From a virus: DNA of 23,811 nt. The position numbers and the translations under genes were made by a program. The notes below the pieces were generated by a model. The model worked only from the letters and a program-made list of their open reading frames with translations. It was not told where the DNA came from and ran no database searches. Of the stretch, positions 4,034 through 19,517 are shown piece by piece; positions within the stretch are counted from its first letter, which is position 1; the number at the start of each line of letters is the position of its first letter. Location: IMG/VR virus record IMGVR_UViG_3300003691_000053, positions 1 through 23,811 of that record; one strand, given 5' to 3'.

Positions 4034-5149
4034 TTAATACTTAAATGATGGAGTATTGCAAGGTAATACAATCATATCAAGACCTATACTTAATACACTC
4101 ATATCAAAACTTGTTAGTTCATCATCCAATATAACCATCAACTTACCATCTGTTATTTGATCCATACAAGTAACAATCAACTCATAATCATTAGATTTAT
4201 TAATACGTTTATCACATGCTATTGCATATTCTAAAGCTCTAACATCTAAGAAATCTGTTCTAAATGATCCTTGTATTGATGTGTCCGGATTTGTTTTCTC
4301 AATATGATTTTGCAAATATTCATTAAATTCTTTAGAATAATTAATTTTACTTTCAATCATTGGACCATTACCATGTCTTGTTTGATAAGCTCTGATTACA
4401 TAGTGAGTTTTTACGTAATCTACATCTAATTGATCAATAATTTCAAATGCATTGAGAGAAGAGGTGTTTGATCTGGTCACATTTGGGAAAAACCCAATAT
4501 TTTTATCAAGTAATAATCCTTGCGCACCTTCAAAAACATAATGGTTAAAATCTAAATCTTTAATGGAATTTGGAATTTTACATACATTAAGCATCTGAGT
4601 TAGAGATTTATACCATAAAGCTTCATCTAACTTATCATGTGTAAATAATTCACCTAAAATATCATAATAATAATCTTTTACCTTACTATATTTTATATCA
4701 AATACCTTTCTAAATAAAGCATTCATAACAGTTAAAGAGTAATTATTTTCATTTCTCTCAATTGTTTTACCAAATCCAACACCAACAGTACCATGACCAC
4801 TAACATTATATTTATTTGATGCAATATCATATAATGTTGTCAACATTACTTCAGGATCTAAATATATAATAGGAACTATACCTTCAGCAAGTAATTTTGA
4901 ATACTCGTTCATGAATGATATTGGGTCTATAGTACAGAATTTACTAATATATGTAGCTGCACCTTTTAATGTTCCAGAACCAATAGAGCTAAATACATGT
5001 TGTATATTATTATATTCAACATTATGAGCTGCTTGATGTCCACCATTAAACCTTACAATTAAGGATTTTTTTGTTGTTAATGCATTTGTAATGTTTCCTT
5101 TTCCTTCATCACCAAATCCTGCACCCAATACTATATCTACTTTCTTCAT
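4034..5149 (-). CDS. purA: Adenylosuccinate synthetase-like protein (PurA/PurZ family)
   Basis: PurA joins aspartate to IMP using GTP, the first step to AMP. PurZ relatives use dGMP to make 2-aminoadenine DNA. The protein shows the family P-loop GDEGKG (residues 13-18) with catalytic Asp14, GGHQAAH (36-42) with the catalytic His, FEGAQGLLLD (206-215), FPNVTRSNT (221-229) and a guanine-binding TCMD (327-330, for TKLD). At 371 residues it is about 60 shorter than E. coli PurA (about 430). The usual aspartate loop (TTGRRRR) is replaced by GSFRTDFLD (294-302), so substrate choice may differ. Keeping Asp14 argues against a standard PurZ, in which that residue is changed. It leads a run of nucleotide genes (DUF1599, ThyX, MazG-like). 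Confidence 0.85.
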   Translation of the reverse strand: MKKVDIVLGAGFGDEGKGNITNALTTKKSLIVRFNGGHQAAHNVEYNNIQHVFSSIGSGTLKGAATYISKFCTIDPISFMNEYSKLLAEGIVPIIYLDPEVMLTTLYDIASNKYNVSGHGTVGVGFGKTIERNENNYSLTVMNALFRKVFDIKYSKVKDYYYDILGELFTHDKLDEALWYKSLTQMLNVCKIPNSIKDLDFNHYVFEGAQGLLLDKNIGFFPNVTRSNTSSLNAFEIIDQLDVDYVKTHYVIRAYQTRHGNGPMIESKINYSKEFNEYLQNHIEKTNPDTSIQGSFRTDFLDVRALEYAIACDKRINKSNDYELIVTCMDQITDGKLMVILDDELTSFDMSVLSIGLDMIVLPCNTPSFKY

Positions 5150-7537: not shown

Positions 7538-8443
7538 TTATAAAATTATTTTTGTTTTTTGTGTTTGACCACCATCAAAATCTTTTGGTTCAGGAGTTTT
7601 AACAACTGATTTAGTTTCAATAGGGTCAGTATTATGTTTAGGTACATTATTAAACATTGAAACAGATGATACAATTAACTTAGACATTTCAATACCTAAA
7701 GTTTTATGATCATCAACAACAATAGCACGTTCACCTAATAATTTTGACCAATCTTTAACTATTTCTTTTCCATAAGAACCAGCTGTGTTATAATTACCAT
7801 CATTTGCATGGATATGAAATACATCCCATTTATCAAGTATATTATCCAATGCTGTTTTAGTAGTAACAGGTTCACCTTTATTAAAAATATGAAATGGGTT
7901 AAATGAAGGATGTGTTTTTTCATCACCAATTGTGATAATAATACCTTTTTGTTTTCTTTTTTCCCAAGCATCAGTAACAACATGATGATCAGCCAAATGA
8001 TAAACAAGACTGTAACTCTCACCACCATTTCCACCACCTCTTTTTTCAAGGAAGATTCTACTTAGCCACATAGCTAATTCATTATCACCTGATTCAAATT
8101 GACCAACTTGTAAAGGTACTCTATCAGTAATATGATCACCAACAGCAACAAACATTATAGCAGGATCAGGAATACCTGCAGCTATTGTTTTTTCAACAAT
8201 ATCTGTAAGACTATTCTTAATAATATGTTCAGGAATATGCCCCATACTAGCAGTTACATCAACTGCAATGATAATTGGAACACTATTTGGATGAGCTTCA
8301 CTATCTCTAGCTTCTCTTACTGTTAAATTTTTAGGAGACATTAAAGGATCTAAATCATTACTGAAAATGTCTTCTTGTGTCTGCTCTCTCAAATTATCAG
8401 TAGTTATACCTCTCGAATGAGATGAATAAGTTGTACCTCCCAT
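7538..8443 (-). CDS. von Willebrand factor A (VWA) domain protein
   Basis: A 301-aa protein with a VWA fold. DVTASMG at residues 62-68 is the MIDAS metal site (DxSxS type, with Thr in place of the first Ser), preceded by the strand PIIIAV. GDNELAMWLS and IIITIGDEKTH are consistent with the later MIDAS strands. The N-terminus is glycine and serine rich; the C-terminus (after about 265) is low-complexity and basic. VWA domains bind protein partners through Mg2+. In phages their targets are mostly unknown. Its ATG overlaps the stop of the upstream charged protein as TAATG, so the two are coupled. A terminator follows at 7502-7529. Confidence 0.78.
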   Translation of the reverse strand: MGGTTYSSHSRGITTDNLREQTQEDIFSNDLDPLMSPKNLTVREARDSEAHPNSVPIIIAVDVTASMGHIPEHIIKNSLTDIVEKTIAAGIPDPAIMFVAVGDHITDRVPLQVGQFESGDNELAMWLSRIFLEKRGGGNGGESYSLVYHLADHHVVTDAWEKRKQKGIIITIGDEKTHPSFNPFHIFNKGEPVTTKTALDNILDKWDVFHIHANDGNYNTAGSYGKEIVKDWSKLLGERAIVVDDHKTLGIEMSKLIVSSVSMFNNVPKHNTDPIETKSVVKTPEPKDFDGGQTQKTKIIL

Positions 8444-8789
8444 TATAATTCCTCCCCAAATAAAGTTGTGTATCTTTCTTTTGCTATTTCAAGTTTGATA
8501 TCCAACTCTCTAATTTCTAAAGATATAGTCATGTCTTTAGCAACATATTCTTTAGCATCGAAATCACTTGCTAATGTTAAAGATAAAGCTGTGGTAGGAG
8601 ACAAATCTAACATACTATCTCTATCTCTAACTTTTTTTCTACGAGCTAAATCCAAATCTTGAACTTCTCTTTGATACAGTGTTTGAGCATCTTCTATAAT
8701 AGATTCAGCTCTATCTTTTCTGATTTCTTTATTATTCCTTACCAAGGAATCTTCAAAAGCTCCTTTTTTTCTTCTTCTGGTACAGCCAT
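8443..8789 (-). CDS. Charged coiled-coil-like protein, -1 frameshift at an A7 run
   Basis: The ATG at 8789 opens MAVPEEEKK, then meets GAA AAA AAG, and without a shift stops at TGG TAA after 16 codons. A -1 shift on A_AAA_AAG joins it to GAFEDSLVRNNKEIRKDRAE and on to the end at 8443. The downstream frame alone has only a TTG at 8745 and no ATG. A_AAA_AAG is a classical bacterial -1 slip site, but one missing A in the assembly would look the same. The full product (about 114 aa) is helical and highly charged (LARRKKVRDRDS). It has no recognised family and is coupled to the VWA gene by a TAATG overlap, so the two may act together. Confidence 0.65.
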
Positions 8790-8810
8790 TGTATATAGTA
8801 TTTAATTATT

Positions 8811-8836
8811 AAAAAATGGGGCTGCTACTACACCCC
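8811..8836 (-). terminator. Likely terminator before the frameshifted gene
   Basis: Minus-strand GGGG, eight-base loop, CCCC, then A and six Ts (8816-8811). The stem is short but GC-only in a very AT-rich sequence. It lies 45 nt after the stop of the 81-aa gene and about 20 nt before the ATG at 8789. An AT hairpin (CAATTA/TAATTG) lies just upstream. Confidence 0.55.
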
Positions 8837-8880
8837 TTGTCAAAATCACAATTAATCAAAAATTATAATTGTTGCAGCAT

Positions 8881-9126
8881 TTAATTTTTTATATTCTCAT
8901 ATCCTAATTCTTTTAATTTATCAGGTAGTATAAGAACATCACACTCTAATTCTTGTTTTTCACATTGAGTAACAAAAATATGATCAGATTTTGGTATAAT
9001 TTTAAGTTTTTCAGCTTTTAAATAAGCTAAACTTTTATCAGATTCTTCTATTATGCAATAACCTTGATTCTTACCTTTATATGAAAAAGATATCCAAAAA
9101 TAAACCATACTTATTCTTTTATTCAT
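8881..9126 (-). CDS. Unknown protein (81 aa)
   Basis: No family was recognised. It begins MNKRISMVYFWISFSYKG and ends KELGYENIKN. The start is aromatic and could be a beta-strand, and the pattern of a short N-terminal strand followed by a helix and then VLILPDKLKELGY resembles small phage proteins that act on host partners. The gene stands alone between two hairpin terminators (9141-9172 and 8811-8836), so it may have its own expression level. Confidence 0.55.
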   Translation of the reverse strand: MNKRISMVYFWISFSYKGKNQGYCIIEESDKSLAYLKAEKLKIIPKSDHIFVTQCEKQELECDVLILPDKLKELGYENIKN

Positions 9127-9140
9127 TATTGCAATATTTA

Positions 9141-13954: not shown

Positions 13955-14023
13955 CACATATAAACAAATATTCTGTATCACTACAGATGGAAATATTGAG
14001 TAAATATGAAAAACTCAATATGT
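13955..14023 (-). ncRNA. Three-way-junction-like structure (G)
   Basis: ACATAT/ATATGT closes a region with two hairpins: CTGTA/TACAG with a 4-nt loop (13973-13986) and ATTGAGT/ACTCAAT with an 11-nt loop (13995-14019). AT-rich stems of this size can arise by chance, so it is less secure than E1 and E2. Confidence 0.35.
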
Positions 14024-14031
14024 TTTAAAAA

Positions 14032-14123
14032 AAGTAAGTCCAAGGCTGTAATACACCATGTCGAAAGAAGTATACATCAATCCTGATGATTAATGTTATA
14101 ATATACATTTATTGAACTTACTT
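14032..14123 (-). ncRNA. Structured RNA element E2
   Basis: AAGTAAGTTCAA (14123-14112) pairs with TTGGACTTACTT (14043-14032), 12 pairs with one G.U, followed by seven Ts, so it can also terminate transcription. Inside, GTATA/TATAC and CATTAATC/GATTGATG form a long hairpin with loop ATCAG, then TTTCGACATGGTGTATTACAGCC leads into the closing stem. E1 has the same plan with different stem sequence, as expected for homologous RNAs under structural selection. It starts 27 nt after the tmRNA 3' end. Function unknown. Confidence 0.58.
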
Positions 14124-14124
14124 A

Positions 14125-14145
14125 AAATCCCATAATCACTATGAG
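14125..14145 (-). terminator. Possible weak terminator after tmRNA
   Basis: Six nucleotides after the CCA of the tmRNA, CTCATA pairs with TATGGG (two of six pairs G.U or equivalent), followed by ATTTT. It is weak and could instead serve as a 3' trailer for processing. Confidence 0.35.
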
Positions 14146-14171
14146 ACAATTGGTGGAGCATAGGGGAATCG

Positions 14172-14832
14172 CATTATTTATATTTAAAAAACTCTATTCC
14201 TAACTCATTCCTATACTGTTTTTCTAATTCAGTATATTTTCCATTTCTTTTAGTAGCTGCTTGTATTTTTTTATATACAGCAATCCTATGTTTTTTCTTT
14301 GGATGAAATGATTTAAGTTTTAATGATACTTGATATCCTTGATTGTAAAGATATTTCAAATCATAACTTATTTTATGAGTTTCTTTTTTTGGAGGTTTCT
14401 TACTAATATGTCCTTTTATACCTAATTCTTTATAAATAAAGTATTGTATTCCAATTAATAATTCCATTTCTGTATTATGAAATGATACTTGTATAGTTTT
14501 ATTTTTACTACTACTTGCGGATGTAAAAGTTATTGACCCATCAGCATCAAAAAAACCTGATATATATTTCCAATTCATTTTACAAACATAGGTAATATCT
14601 ATACCACCTCCAAATTAAATATTCTATAATTTCTTATAGGATCGGACTATATCATCATCTGTTCAAGATGTTGCTTCCTGTAGGCTTGCCATAGCATCCT
14701 TAGTCTCTGAACCTGCTCACTTCTTCCAGTGAGATTGGCTGCTGATTGTCATAGGTTTCCACACCCTTAGAGTTCCAGCAATTCAAGCAATTTTTAATTA
14801 TATATCCCTATATAATGGGTCCGTATTCCTTA
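14172..14832 (-). ncRNA. Group I intron in the tmRNA T-loop
   Basis: All core helices can be drawn. P1: exon GGGTT (14837-14833) with guide GACCC (14821-14817), U.G at the splice site. P2: TTATATA GGGA TATATAA. P3: GCTTG (14788-14784) with CAAGC (14688-14684). P4: GCTG with CAGC (14779-14776, 14744-14741). R: GTTCAGAGACTA; S: GATATAGTCC; P7 GACTA/TAGTC. P8: CATCT/AGATG. P9: CTATAA GAAA TTATAG. The intron ends with G at 14172, directly before CGATTCCCC, and carries a LAGLIDADG ORF after P9. Group I introns at the tmRNA T-loop are known from some bacteria as I recall. Splicing should be self-catalysed. Confidence 0.93.
14174..14578 (-). CDS. LAGLIDADG homing endonuclease (intron-encoded)
   Basis: A 134-aa single-motif LAGLIDADG protein. 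YISGFFDADGSI (residues 5-16) is the signature helix with the catalytic Asp, and the rest (ISKKPPKKETHKISYDL, then the basic end AVYKKIQAATKR) fits the DNA-binding saddle. A single motif means it works as a homodimer on a near-palindromic site. Here the target is presumably the intronless tmRNA T-arm, which is itself palindromic-like. The ORF lies after P9 and its TAA ends 1 nt before the terminal G of the intron, so stop codon and 3' splice site are nearly fused. Some such proteins also help splicing. Confidence 0.88.
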   Translation of the reverse strand: MNWKYISGFFDADGSITFTSASSSKNKTIQVSFHNTEMELLIGIQYFIYKELGIKGHISKKPPKKETHKISYDLKYLYNQGYQVSLKLKSFHPKKKHRIAVYKKIQAATKRNGKYTELEKQYRNELGIEFFKYK

Positions 14833-15002
14833 AACCCCTGTCCAAAATATCTTACTAAATAAATCTTTTTACACACTTAGGTTTTGAATAGATTTCCTTC
14901 TATGGAGTTGACCACCATGCAGTTTTGTGTTCTGCAAAACAAAATTCCAAAAAAATAAATGATTAATGATTCTGTTTCCAAGCTCATTAATAAGCTCAGT
15001 TC

Positions 15003-15053
15003 TTAAATTGCTATTGCAAGTTGAGAGAACATTGGTATAACGTTAGTTTTGCC
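15003..15053 (-). other. tmRNA tag reading frame (16 codons)
   Basis: After AAAACA TAATT the resume codon is GGC (15053-15051), matching E. coli AAAAAA TAGTC GCA with the key A at -4 kept. The frame reads GKTNVIPMFSQLAIAI then TAA. Bacteroidota tags commonly start with Gly (for example GETNYALAA as I recall), so the start fits. The tag is longer than usual and ends LAIAI instead of the LAA-type end read by ClpXP. The alternative frame from GCA would give AKLTLYQCSLNLQ, judged less likely from the -5 to -1 context. Confidence 0.75.
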
Positions 15054-15241
15054 AATTATGTTTTAGTACAAGGCTCTACAGCACAGTGTGTGAATTTAAA
15101 TCATCTAATACCTGTCAAATCCAGTATGCCCCTTTTAAAAAATCACCTATCTATAAGGTATATGAGTCAATCTAACCTAAAAAATTAACTTTATATAGAA
15201 ATATGAGTTTCAAATTCATACTTTCAGTGATTGGTTATTTT

Positions 15242-16285
15242 TTATCTACCAACTATACTTGATAATTGATATCCTAATTGGACAGCCCAATCATAATCAT
15301 ATGCTTTACCTACAACAAATGTGATAAATATAGCATATAAGATTATTAATATAAAACCAGTCCATTTTGTCATTTTCTTATTAAATAAGAAGATCATTAT
15401 TGTAATAAATGTCAATATTAATAACCAAACTCTTAGCTCTACACTATTAGTTGTAGTTGAAAAAGTCATTATAACATCACCATAAATTAAAGTATACAAA
15501 CCTAATGGTAAACCATGAGCAATACATATATCAAAAATATTACTACCTATAGCATTTGATACAGCATCATTGTAATTACCTTTTTTAGCATCTCTCATTG
15601 ATATAAAAGTATCAGGTATACTAGAAGCAGCAGAAGCTAAAATAATAGACACAAACATCAGATGTATACCTAATGAATCACCTATGTAGACAACTCCTTC
15701 AACCAATATATATGATCCAATGACCATTATAATAATTGATACAATCAATAATAATATTGATTTACCTGTTTGACCACCATGAGGTTTCCAATATGGTTCT
15801 GGTTCTTTTTTTGTCATTGTACCAAACATATAAATAAGATATACAATATACAAAGCCACTAAAATCCAACCATCATAAATACCAATGACATTAGTGTTTA
15901 TAATACCTATTAACATTAATTCAGCTACTAATAAGAAAAAACTATCTCTTATTATAACTTTTCTTGATACACTTATAGATTTAATTGTACCAAACAATGT
16001 AACTGTTAATATAACCAATGAAGGTATTAATAGAGAATTAAATACTGCACTTCCAGCAGTTGTTCCAATAGTTCCTGAATATCCATCACTGCCATGAACA
16101 AAGAATAAGAATATAAATCCAGTTAATAATTCAGGCATTGAAGATGCTATTGCATTAATAGAAGCTCCTTTAACACCATCACTTAGGTTTCTACCTAAAT
16201 AATCTGAAGCATCTTCAAATAGACCTGAACCATACCAAATTAGTATTCCTGATACCAAGATTGCTAATAAAGCTAAGAAAATCAT
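15242..16285 (-). CDS. Na+/Ca2+ exchanger family (CaCA) membrane protein
   Basis: A 347-aa protein with about ten membrane segments and the two alpha-repeats of cation/Ca2+ exchangers. Repeat 1 is GASINAIASSMPELLTG (residues 40-56) plus GSAVFN (78-83). Repeat 2 is ILASAASSIPDTFISM (215-230) plus GSNIFD (247-252). The acidic residues Glu52 and Asp225 correspond to ion-binding positions, the second being Asp rather than Glu. It should move Ca2+ (or another divalent ion) against Na+ or H+ across the host inner membrane; the ion is inferred. It directly follows the EF-hand/TerB-like gene with no gap, inside a Ter-like operon. Such an exchanger is unusual on a phage. Confidence 0.85.
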   Translation of the reverse strand: MIFLALLAILVSGILIWYGSGLFEDASDYLGRNLSDGVKGASINAIASSMPELLTGFIFLFFVHGSDGYSGTIGTTAGSAVFNSLLIPSLVILTVTLFGTIKSISVSRKVIIRDSFFLLVAELMLIGIINTNVIGIYDGWILVALYIVYLIYMFGTMTKKEPEPYWKPHGGQTGKSILLLIVSIIIMVIGSYILVEGVVYIGDSLGIHLMFVSIILASAASSIPDTFISMRDAKKGNYNDAVSNAIGSNIFDICIAHGLPLGLYTLIYGDVIMTFSTTTNSVELRVWLLILTFITIMIFLFNKKMTKWTGFILIILYAIFITFVVGKAYDYDWAVQLGYQLSSIVGR

Positions 16286-16817: not shown

Positions 16818-17519
16818 TTATATAATATTAAGAATTTTTGCTTCTCTTAACCAATCAGGAAACTCATCCATCATCTTGTTATATAGATCATCATCAGTCA
16901 TTTTATTGATGTCAACAACTTTAAAAAAGTTAGCATTATCAACTCTACGACCAGACATGTTATCTAATTTTTCAAGAAAACCAAAGCTTGCTCTACCAAT
17001 TCCAATGAATTGAAAGAATATTCCATGATTAGCTGCATTTGTTATAGCTCTTTCTGCATGAAATGAATCACTACAGTCTCCATCAGCTAAAAACATTACA
17101 TAGGCTGGATCACCTTTTTCACTAGTATATTTTTCTTGGATCATTTCAATGATAGGAGTATAAGAAGTACCACCCATTCCATATTTATCCATAATTTCAC
17201 GTTTTACAACATTGTCAAAATGAGCAGGTGAAATTTCACCTAAATCATATGCTTTGTTATGAAATATAAATAAATCAATAGCTTGATTATCATCAAATGT
17301 AACACCAACAGGTAACAATCTTTCAACTACTTGTTGTACTGTACCATTTTGGTATAAACTATCCATAGAACCTGAATAATCAAGTACTAAAGCAACTCTG
17401 GCTTTTTGTTCACCAATACCTTTTGCAGTGGTGATTTTTTTAACGAGATCAACTCGTTGTTTAATAAGATCCACCTTATTAATAGGTGGAGCCTTATCTT
17501 TTTTACCAAATCCAAACAT
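16818..17519 (-). CDS. TerF-type VWA domain protein
   Basis: A 233-aa VWA protein of the type found at the C-terminus of TerF. The MIDAS is LVLDYSGSM (residues 45-52) and the segment SLYQNGTVQQVVERLLPVG (54-72) is close to the TerF pattern. GGTSYTP and MFLADGDCSD supply the further metal-site residues. The first 40 residues are lysine rich and lack a TerD domain, so this is the stand-alone form. In Ter systems such VWA proteins are thought to scaffold TerD-family proteins at the membrane. It overlaps the TerD stop as TAATG, so the two are coupled. Confidence 0.8.
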   Translation of the reverse strand: MFGFGKKDKAPPINKVDLIKQRVDLVKKITTAKGIGEQKARVALVLDYSGSMDSLYQNGTVQQVVERLLPVGVTFDDNQAIDLFIFHNKAYDLGEISPAHFDNVVKREIMDKYGMGGTSYTPIIEMIQEKYTSEKGDPAYVMFLADGDCSDSFHAERAITNAANHGIFFQFIGIGRASFGFLEKLDNMSGRRVDNANFFKVVDINKMTDDDLYNKMMDEFPDWLREAKILNII

Positions 17520-18736: not shown

Positions 18737-18869
18737 TATAGAAAGGAATAGTTTACTATGTGTCATTATGTAAATACAGGAATTGAACCTGTTACCTTAA
18801 AATTAAGAGTTTCATGCTCTACCAACTGAGCTAAAATACGAAGTAACATAATAATTTACCATTTCTATA
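18737..18869 (-). ncRNA. tRNA scaffold cassette C1 (holds tRNA-Lys)
   Basis: Outer stem TATAGAAA (18869-18862) with TTTCTATA (18744-18737). The 5' core is TGGTAAA, TTATTATG, TTACTTCGTA (18861-18837). The 3' core is TAATGACA, CATAGTAA, ACTATTCC (18768-18745). TTATTATG pairs with CATAGTAA (8 bp, one G.U), and GG with CC. The same plan occurs in C2 and C3 with different stem sequence and the same single-stranded blocks, so the pairings are supported by covariation. It looks like an RNA scaffold with a tRNA body inserted in its loop. Confidence 0.75.
18769..18840 (-). tRNA. tRNA-Lys (CUU) body, weak acceptor
   Basis: D-arm GCTC AGTTGGTA GAGC, anticodon arm TGAAA CTCTTAA TTTTA (anticodon CUU), T-arm ACAGG TTCAATT CCTGT are all canonical. 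The acceptor is poor: CGTATTT against ATTTACA pairs at only four of seven positions, because the 5' strand is the conserved scaffold sequence TTCGTATTT shared with the Gln copy. Upstream GTAAAT could pair with ATTTAC instead, leaving a 20-nt insert before position 8. CCA is not encoded. It may be a functional tRNA after unusual processing, or a decoy. Confidence 0.6.
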
Positions 18870-18870
18870 G

Positions 18871-18945
18871 AGATTGATATAGGATTTGAACCTATGACCT
18901 TCTGATTAACAGTCAGATGCTCTAGCCAAGCTGAGCTAATCAATC
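18871..18945 (-). tRNA. tRNA-Asn (GUU)
   Basis: Acceptor GATTGAT/ATCAATC (7 bp), D-arm GCTC AGCTTGGCTA GAGC, anticodon arm TCTGA CTGTTAA TCAGA (anticodon GUU), variable AGGTC, T-arm ATAGG TTCAAAT CCTAT. A normal tRNA lying between cassettes C2 and C1, with no scaffold around it. CCA is not encoded and the discriminator base appears to be U, unusual for Asn. Confidence 0.9.
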
Positions 18946-18953
18946 TTAAAATA

Positions 18954-19086
18954 AACAAGAGGAATACTTATAAATGTGTCATTAATGTATGTGTTGGAGT
19001 TGAACCAACGACCTCAAAAACCAAAATTTTGCGTTCTAACCATCTGAACTAAAATACGAAGTAACATTTACATTTACCATCTTGTT
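18954..19086 (-). ncRNA. tRNA scaffold cassette C2 (holds tRNA-Gln)
   Basis: Outer stem AACAAGA (19086-19080) with TCTTGTT (18960-18954). The 5' core is TGGTAAA, TGTAAATG, TTACTTCGTA (19079-19055). The 3' core is TAATGACA, CATTTATA, AGTATTCC (18984-18961). TGTAAATG pairs with CATTTATA (8 bp, one G.U). The core blocks equal those of C1 while both stems differ in sequence yet still pair. The insert is a tRNA body in normal order. Confidence 0.75.
18986..19058 (-). tRNA. tRNA-Gln (UUG) body, weak acceptor
   Basis: D-arm GTTC AGATGGTTA GAAC, anticodon arm CAAAA TTTTGGT TTTTG (anticodon UUG), variable AGGTC, T-arm GTTGG TTCAACT CCAAC. The acceptor CGTATTT/ACATACA pairs at five of seven positions; the 5' strand is identical to that of the Lys copy because it is part of the scaffold. 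CCA is not encoded. The body is sound, so the unusual ends are likely to matter. Confidence 0.62.
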
Positions 19087-19092
19087 GTGTTG

Positions 19093-19131
19093 TTCCTCTG
19101 TACTGATATACCAGATGTAGCTCCAGAGAAA
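19093..19131 (-). repeat. Hairpin between cassettes C3 and C2
   Basis: TTTCTCTG (19131-19124) pairs with CAGAGGAA (19100-19093), 8 pairs with one G.U. The loop holds GAGCTACATCTGGTATATCAGTA, within which CTG/CAG can pair. It may be a spacer or processing site in the cluster transcript. No T-run follows, so it is not a terminator. Confidence 0.4.
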
Positions 19132-19159
19132 AAGTTTTATCTACTTTGTTTATATTTTT

Positions 19160-19309
19160 AAAAAATTAAGGAATACTAATAAAAGTGTATTATCTAAAAA
19201 TTTGAGTTTAAATCAAACGTGTTAACCAATTACACCATACTCTTTTGCAAGAATAATAGGACTCGAACCTATACTACGAAGTAACTTTTATTTTTACCAT
19301 TAATTTTTT
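19160..19309 (-). ncRNA. tRNA scaffold cassette C3 (holds permuted tRNA)
   Basis: Outer stem AAAAAATTAA (19309-19300) with TTAATTTTTT (19169-19160), 10 bp. The 5' core is TGGTAAA, AATAAAAG, TTACTTCGTA (19299-19275). The 3' core is TAATACA, CTTTTATT, AGTATTCC (19192-19170). AATAAAAG pairs perfectly with CTTTTATT. The single-stranded blocks match C1 and C2 while both stems covary. Here the insert is a tRNA in permuted order, so the scaffold joins the tRNA at the variable loop rather than at the acceptor. Confidence 0.75.
19201..19272 (-). tRNA. Circularly permuted tRNA (anticodon UAA)
   Basis: In transcript order: T-arm ATAGG TTCGAGT CCTAT (19272-19256), acceptor 3' strand TATTCTT (19255-19249), loop GCAA, acceptor 5' strand AAGAGTA (19244-19238), D-arm GTGT AATTGGTTA ACAC, anticodon arm TTTGA TTTAAAC TCAAA (to 19201). 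The acceptor pairs at 7 of 7 positions with one G.U. Every tRNA arm is present, but the 3' half comes first, as in the permuted tRNA genes of some algae and archaea. The break is in the variable loop. Anticodon UAA would read UUA (Leu). The G after the acceptor and the same GCAAAA as in tRNA-Asp are odd for Leu. Use as a tRNA would need cutting and ligation. Confidence 0.7.
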
Positions 19310-19317
19310 GGGTTGGT

Positions 19318-19391
19318 TAGGATAATTTAAAGTGTTGCACTAGCTGAGAAACTATTTTAACGATTATTCAGCAACAAATTTTGTTATCCTA
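19318..19391 (-). ncRNA. Large hairpin upstream of cassette C3
   Basis: TAGGATAA (19391-19384) pairs with TTATCCTA (19325-19318), and inside it TGTTGC pairs with GCAACA and TGA with TCA. At about 74 nt it has tRNA size, but no T-arm (GGTTC) or anticodon arm can be drawn, so it is not called a tRNA. Role unknown. Confidence 0.45.
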
Positions 19392-19443
19392 TTCAGATGT
19401 TATCTCCATTATTACATCTTACCAGATCTTAAAGAACTTTTTG

Positions 19444-19517
19444 CAGTGCATACGGGATTTGAACCCGTAATCTCTTCCGTGACAGGAAAGCAACATACGC
19501 TAATATGATGATGCACT
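19444..19517 (-). tRNA. tRNA-Asp (GUC)
   Basis: Acceptor AGTGCAT/ATGCACT (7 bp), D-stem CATA/TATG, anticodon arm CTTTC CTGTCAC GGAAG (anticodon GUC, one G.U), T-arm ACGGG TTCAAAT CCCGT, discriminator G as expected for Asp. It is the first tRNA of the cluster transcript. CCA is not encoded; GCAAAA follows. Confidence 0.85.

Follow-up and report, generated by a model that had tools for sequence, protein, structure and literature searches.

A tmRNA gene of a phage divided in its T-loop by a group I intron with a LAGLIDADG homing endonuclease ORF

Introduction

We describe a tmRNA gene that is divided within its T-loop by a group I intron containing a LAGLIDADG homing endonuclease ORF. The gene lies in a 23,811-base IMG/VR viral record, the whole of which is called the window here. 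We consider it very probable that this is a phage tmRNA gene whose T-loop is cut by a self-splicing mobile intron that homes into intronless phage tmRNA genes. This reading is based on the sequence, the fold, covariation, relatives with and without the intron, and the association of tmRNA genes with the homing endonuclease gene (HEG) family.

Introns in the tmRNA T-loop and tmRNAs of phages are each already known, but an intron-split tmRNA borne by a phage is apparently unreported. The bacterial T-loop introns mentioned in the original prediction from this sequence are indeed in print (PMC11915505). According to the excerpts of that survey, it holds 883 unique tmRNA intron sequences, with HEGs in 36 of the 883 and none above 700 bp; position 3 of the T-loop is reported only from class Bacteroidia, the HEG follows P9 in 4 of 23 HEG-bearing founding sequences, and 79 phage tmRNAs were included. 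Phage-encoded tmRNAs were counted in 402 of 18,146 phages in the excerpts of PMC9004378. We found no published case of a phage tmRNA intron in the open-licence PMC literature; PMC11915505 covered RefSeq viruses and may contain some.

Results

A tmRNA gene that is complete only when spliced

14833..15132, minus strand: tmRNA exon 1, 300 nt, with acceptor 5' strand GGGGCAT, resume region, tag reading frame, T-stem AGGGG and T-loop TT (ARAGORN on the spliced sequence; Rfam tmRNA match 15125-14836)
15003..15053, minus strand: tag reading frame GKTNVIPMFSQLAIAI*, positions 80-130 of the mature tmRNA (ARAGORN)
14172..14832, minus strand: group I intron, 661 nt, T-loop position 3, last base G (Rfam and covariation among 18 sequences)
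14817..14837, minus strand: P1, exon GGGUU (14837-14833) with guide GACCC (14821-14817), U.G at the 5' splice site
14797..14816, minus strand: P2, with changes on both sides in 7 of 8 pairs
14645..14790, minus strand: ribozyme core P3-P8, plus an extra P7.1-type stretch between P7 and P3'
14624..14639, minus strand: P9, with changes on both sides in 7 of 7 pairs; the ORF comes after it
14174..14578, minus strand, sense: LAGLIDADG homing endonuclease ORF, 134 aa, between P9 and the 3' splice site
14151..14171, minus strand: tmRNA exon 2, 21 nt, with T-loop CGATT, T-stem CCCCT, acceptor ATGCTCC and ACCA

The tmRNA starts with GGGGCAT at 15132, and exon 2 ends in an encoded CCA. Joining 15132-14833 to 14171-14151 gave 321 nt in which ARAGORN recognised one full-length tmRNA, with a resume codon and a tag frame closed by a stop. 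None of 2000 dinucleotide shuffles of this spliced sequence was called a tmRNA, and ARAGORN made no call in the unspliced window or in the unspliced gene. After splicing, the tRNA-like domain has a 7-bp acceptor (GGGGCAT/ATGCTCC, 7 of 7 paired) with a G3.U pair, a T-arm AGGGG-TTCGATT-CCCCT with 5 of 5 stem pairs, and CCA. A G3.U acceptor pair is a mark of alanine acceptors. The original prediction had proposed a split tmRNA at these positions, with a T-loop TTCGATT that exists only after splicing; the ARAGORN calls and the exon ends, TT and CGATT, uphold both.

The Rfam check that accompanied the prediction came out in part. On 14000-15300 the Intron_gpI model scored 82.8 bits at 14843-14623 (gathering 50, E 3.1e-21), whereas the tmRNA model (RF00023) gave 23.4 bits on the unspliced region, below its gathering value of 47 (E 3.4e-7), with the T-arm missing. 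Rfam scans of the whole window did not list the intron, so the gene would escape standard annotation. The window exons showed no close relative among 63 phage tmRNAs compared, the best being 83% over 64 nt.

The window tag ends in AIAI, instead of the usual ALAA, which makes tagging for proteolysis doubtful and degradation of tagged proteins uncertain. Tags that lack an AA end were also called by ARAGORN in 10 of 28 standard-form phage tmRNAs from a listing of at least 120 records (L246, L251, L265, L267, L289, L300, L311, L314, L330, and L350), many of them ending in TVA. Such tags may not be degrons, and some are perhaps miscalled frames.

Position and fold of the intron

The intron divides the T-loop as TT^CGATT and has the features of a group I intron, namely a P3-P9 core, a -1U.G at the 5' splice site and a terminal G. 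ARAGORN accepted 36 of 625 shifted junctions and thus places the site only roughly, not to the base; the exact splice sites follow from the P1 U.G pair (GGGUU/GACCC), the terminal G, the reconstitution of the T-loop, and the relatives. As we read it, the insertion subsite is position 3 in the numbering given in the excerpts of PMC11915505.

We examined covariation in 18 non-redundant introns, all of which fold alike. RNAalifold recovered P1-P6, P8 and P9 unaided; one further helix that it proposed was dropped as spurious. With P7 added, 98.8% of 913 cells were paired, and 31 of 51 pairs were changed on both sides. None of 500 shuffles reached the observed value on any of five measures, and pairing fell to 33-42% when partners were slid by 1-3 columns. 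Within the core, P3, P4, P5, P6 and P8 covary, and P7 (14705-14701 with 14649-14645) is invariant in 18 of 18. P1 is invariant in this set because the search pattern fixes it. In two introns found by another route (L660 and L663), the exon reads GAGTT (GAGUU), the guide GACTC (GACUC) and the 3' exon CTC: one exon base is altered jointly with its partner in P1 and its partner in the T-stem, a compensatory change. The predicted fold is thus strongly supported by covariation, and the group I intron with helices P1-P9 that had been proposed is confirmed by this and by the Rfam score.

The LAGLIDADG ORF and its family

The proposed LAGLIDADG ORF matched Pfam LAGLIDADG_3 at 34.5 bits (cut-off 22.5), as predicted. 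Its stop codon is followed by a T and then by the last G of the intron, two bases from the intron end. The motif D-x-DGS, with acidic residues D11 and D13, is invariant in seven sequences. The best Foldseek match of the ORF model was I-OnuI (E 6e-4); in the AlphaFold model, residues 1-12, where most of the motif lies, have pLDDT below 50.

Searching viral contigs with the single window protein returned no HEG relatives, and a search with aligned LAGLIDADG proteins returned 34 viral loci. Near-full-length relatives at 39% identity or more were found at 23 of the 34, and every one of these 23 is located in a phage tmRNA gene or next to one (13 resolved by script and 10 by eye, with no 5' end found for L658, L666 and L679). 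Eighteen are inside T-loop introns, 17 antisense and one sense; three are just downstream of an intron-bearing tmRNA (L651, L653, and L656), and two just downstream of an intronless one (L654 and L655). The script found no tmRNA at the other 11 loci, which are 24-41% identical (the 41% of L678 extends over 58 residues only). The window HEG is in the sense orientation, in contrast to the 17 of 18 intron-borne copies in other phages. By our reading, the HEG-linked introns occupy subsites 2 (L653), 3, 7 (L657 and L679) and 8 (L666). As judged from sequence, one HEG family is linked to one RNA gene across many phages.

The same arrangement in other viral records

At least 120 viral records have a tmRNA 5' end, and ARAGORN called 56 tmRNAs in these, 28 standard and 28 permuted. 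The group I intron model matched in five of the 64 records that lack an ARAGORN call, and in four of the five (L270, L293, L325, and L333) the intron is in the T-loop. That of L333 (IMGVR_UViG_3300028378_000032) was read as lying at T-loop position 8 and has an antisense HNH ORF; position 8 is in print for Saprospiraceae only, according to the excerpts of PMC11915505.

A scan for the 5' junction and guide gave, as a complete listing, 32 viral records with the same subsite, a count biased by a scan pattern that fixes GGGTTT...GGACCCAT. A terminal G and a paired T-stem were found in 28 of the 32; in three (L560, L621, and L629) the intron ends in A, not G, and in one (L620) the contig ended with no 3' end found. 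Once the window, L465 and L510 are counted in, the catalogue script resolved 31 of 35; it set minimum values of 4 of 5 for T-stem pairs and, in records with a 5' end, of 6 of 7 for acceptor pairs. Intron lengths were 220-228 nt without an ORF (23 introns) and 639-703 nt with a LAGLIDADG ORF (8 introns), and the contigs reach 281 kb. The original prediction held that such an intron in a phage would be notable; the window is not a singleton but one instance of a recurrent phage arrangement.

Two named phage genomes have the same subsite. The crAss-like phage cr128_1 (NC_055885.1), whose record does not annotate the tmRNA, has a tmRNA gene at 7824-9140 with an 869-nt intron and an antisense endonuclease gene. 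A 735-kb uncultured huge phage (LR756501.1, L371; record without annotation) has a 229-nt intron that ends in A. G is the near-universal last base of a group I intron, and the A-ending tmRNA introns (L560, L621, L629, and L371) may be inactive or may use another route. With so many phages sharing the arrangement, selfish DNA seems to have targeted the phage tmRNA gene repeatedly.

A second nuclease family beside the introns

A second ORF family, of 176-194 aa, matched PHROG 3322 ('endonuclease') and also endonuclease VII models. An ORF of this Endo VII-like family lies within 160 nt of the tmRNA in 15 of 31 intron-bearing phage records, and none lies within 3 kb of 32 intronless phage tmRNAs, several of whose loci are short; some of the 15 positive records also supplied the sequences for the search model. 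A homologue is located in the cr128_1 intron.

Intronless alleles and relationships of the introns

The intronless mature tmRNA of L350 is 96.6% identical over 415 nt to the spliced tmRNA of L614, and the T-stems differ. Intronless tmRNAs were also found in Flavobacterium phage FpV4 and in Cellulophaga phages Calle_1, phi40:1 and phi14:2, the last scoring 46.0 bits against a gathering value of 47. In most of 18 chosen pairs the introns are more alike than the exons (100% against 84% for L270/L614, 96% against 77% for L270/L611, 93% against 78% for L325/L619); exceptions with equal identity are L612/L618 (98% for both) and L325/L617 (89% for both). The comparison of tmRNA exons omitted records without a 5' end, and in it the 5' ends of L605, L609, L622, L623 and L628 were set by hand. 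Higher intron than exon identity could be due in part to constraint on the ribozyme.

In an IQ-TREE analysis of 39 intron cores, a branch of 3.03 with support of 100 (the root split) separates four Clostridia tmRNA introns from the viral ones, and the former probably represent a separate invasion. The window intron groups with those of L325, L617, L619, L628, L623 and L620, which bear ORFs (support 97), and an intron beside polA of a Vibrio phage and an intron of phage ZC08 are placed, weakly supported, among the tmRNA introns of viruses. From this placement, the intron pool looks phage-wide.

Four apparent bacterial position-3 introns suggested by a 3'-end pattern (L151, L240, L242, and L415) were rejected: each is an intact tmRNA followed by a second copy of its 3' end, a probable attachment site of an island. 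In 395 Bacteroidia genomes we found 19 group I introns, none recognised as a tmRNA intron.

Phage T-loops with another sequence

Ten viral records have a T-loop AGTCGGAG of 8 nt in place of TTCRANN, with a paired T-stem (L654, L655, L291, L298, L313, L317, L321, L326, L328, and L340), and the acceptor partner was found in 9 of the 10. In L654 and L655 a free-standing LAGLIDADG gene of the window ORF's family is just downstream of the intronless tmRNA. This would fit a new loop that shields the gene from its own nuclease.

The phage and its host

The window encodes a phage DNA polymerase, a helicase, a ThyX-type match, an adenylosuccinate-synthetase-like protein, and others. Megablast of the window against 50,697 phage records gave no match. 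The DNA polymerase is 37-39% identical to its best phage matches, including Flavobacterium psychrophilum phages; no convincing tmRNA was found in the records of these relatives, one of six having only an 18-base match, and they do not fix the host. GGAG or GAGG precedes only 3 of 30 window genes, and scarcity of these motifs is expected of Bacteroidota hosts. The phage cr128_1 has the architecture of the window and the same acceptor pair. The Bacteroidota host suggested by the original prediction is therefore plausible, given the few GGAG/GAGG motifs, the likeness to cr128_1 and the position-3 introns of Bacteroidia in the excerpts of PMC11915505, but it is not proven.

We found no SmpB in 25 phage records, the window included, with a search that gave a match in 10 of 14 control genomes; host SmpB would thus be needed. 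Other observations on the window concern its remaining genes. The adenylosuccinate-synthetase-like gene (4034-5149) matches PHROG 1211 (2-aminooxy adenylosuccinate synthetase), and the phage may have a modified base. A tRNA cluster (Lys, Asn, Gln, and Asp) at 18768-19517 includes a tRNA-like match at 19182-19244 that lacks a normal T-arm. Just upstream of the tmRNA are a sodium/calcium exchanger gene and a TerF-like vWA gene (15242-16285 and 16818-17519).

Discussion

We infer splicing, charging, tagging, cleavage and homing as follows. In the precursor, exon GGGUU would pair with the intron guide GACCC to form P1. Two transesterifications would release the intron and ligate TT to CGATT. The T-arm would arise only through this step, and the tRNA-like domain could not form without it. 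The host alanyl-tRNA synthetase would charge the mature tmRNA, with its G3.U acceptor, and the tmRNA would act with SmpB from the host to free stalled ribosomes. Intronless tmRNA genes of co-infecting phages, and possibly those of hosts, would be cleaved near the T-arm by the LAGLIDADG protein, and repair would insert a copy of the intron.

Other explanations deserve consideration. The intron could be dead or a poor splicer, and the tmRNA a decaying relic or a decoy that titrates SmpB. A tag without an ALAA end is compatible with this, as are the A-ending introns of three relatives and of LR756501.1; in the excerpts of PMC4131195, a form from phage DS6A that comprises little beyond the tRNA-like domain is described as resembling a tmRNA inhibitor, which perhaps acts through titration of SmpB. 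We nevertheless think a relic or decoy unlikely, since the core helices are all kept, most with compensatory changes, the window acceptor and T-stem pair throughout (7/7 and 5/5), and the window intron has a terminal G and an uninterrupted ORF. A bacterial or prophage-border origin of the record, with a tmRNA that is the host's and not the phage's, is barely credible. While tmRNA genes often serve as integration sites, second copies of the 3' end follow intact tmRNAs of bacteria, and the excerpts of PMC11915505 give the same subsite from Bacteroidia genomes, the tmRNA is flanked by a phage DNA polymerase, a helicase and other phage-type genes. Moreover, no integrase was found among 10 flanking proteins searched, 295 Bacteroidia genomes match the tmRNA in short pieces only, and the arrangement recurs in named phage genomes.

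The original prediction had also suggested that splicing times the supply of tmRNA during infection. An intron retained for such regulation would have a built-in delay, since splicing must precede function, but we find the idea unsupported and very unlikely. Close relatives have intronless alleles, as in the L350/L614 pair, the distribution is patchy, and the nuclease linkage points to mobility; nearly identical tmRNA genes with and without the intron are expected of a mobile element, not of a needed switch. A self-splicing mobile intron in a phage tmRNA gene remains our preferred reading.

This intron resembles the bacterial T-loop introns described in the excerpts of PMC11915505 in its gene, loop, position 3 (TT^C), P1 U.G, terminal G and HEG placement after P9, and differs in being in a phage, the position-3 cases published there all being from class Bacteroidia. 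As in the phage tmRNAs covered by the excerpts of PMC9004378 and in Cellulophaga phage Calle_1, the tmRNA gene is complete; the former are one-piece or two-piece genes called by ARAGORN, and intron forms escape that program. Among the matches listed, phage introns at protein genes, such as that beside polA in Vibrio phage 424E50-1, match the core at 68-83% over parts, but here the interrupted gene is a tmRNA. The LAGLIDADG type of the HEG contrasts with the GIY-YIG, HNH and related types usual in phage introns in the excerpts of PMC3984707.

The Endo VII-like genes recall collaborative homing, in which a free-standing nuclease acts with an ORF-less intron, as known from phages in the excerpts of PMC3984707 and, for F-CphI, of PMC6083498. 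Here too ORF-less introns adjoin a free-standing nuclease gene, in 15 of 31 records; unlike in those systems, the gene is a tmRNA and the cleavage is putative. As a tentative and rather doubtful extension, the phage T-loop may be an arena of conflict, in which the LAGLIDADG and Endo VII-like families spread introns and phages recode the loop to AGTCGGAG. Introns would enter the T-loops of rival phages at several subsites, with nuclease genes inside, antisense to, or beside the intron.

ARAGORN, a common means of counting phage tmRNAs, misses the intron forms, so ribosome-rescue genes of phages are undercounted. Phage introns are a possible source of the position-3 introns of Bacteroidia. The arrangement opens three questions to testing: the reason for having tmRNA genes in phages at all, a possible contest over them between competing phages, and the role of altered T-loops, which could be resistance alleles still functional with SmpB and the ribosome.
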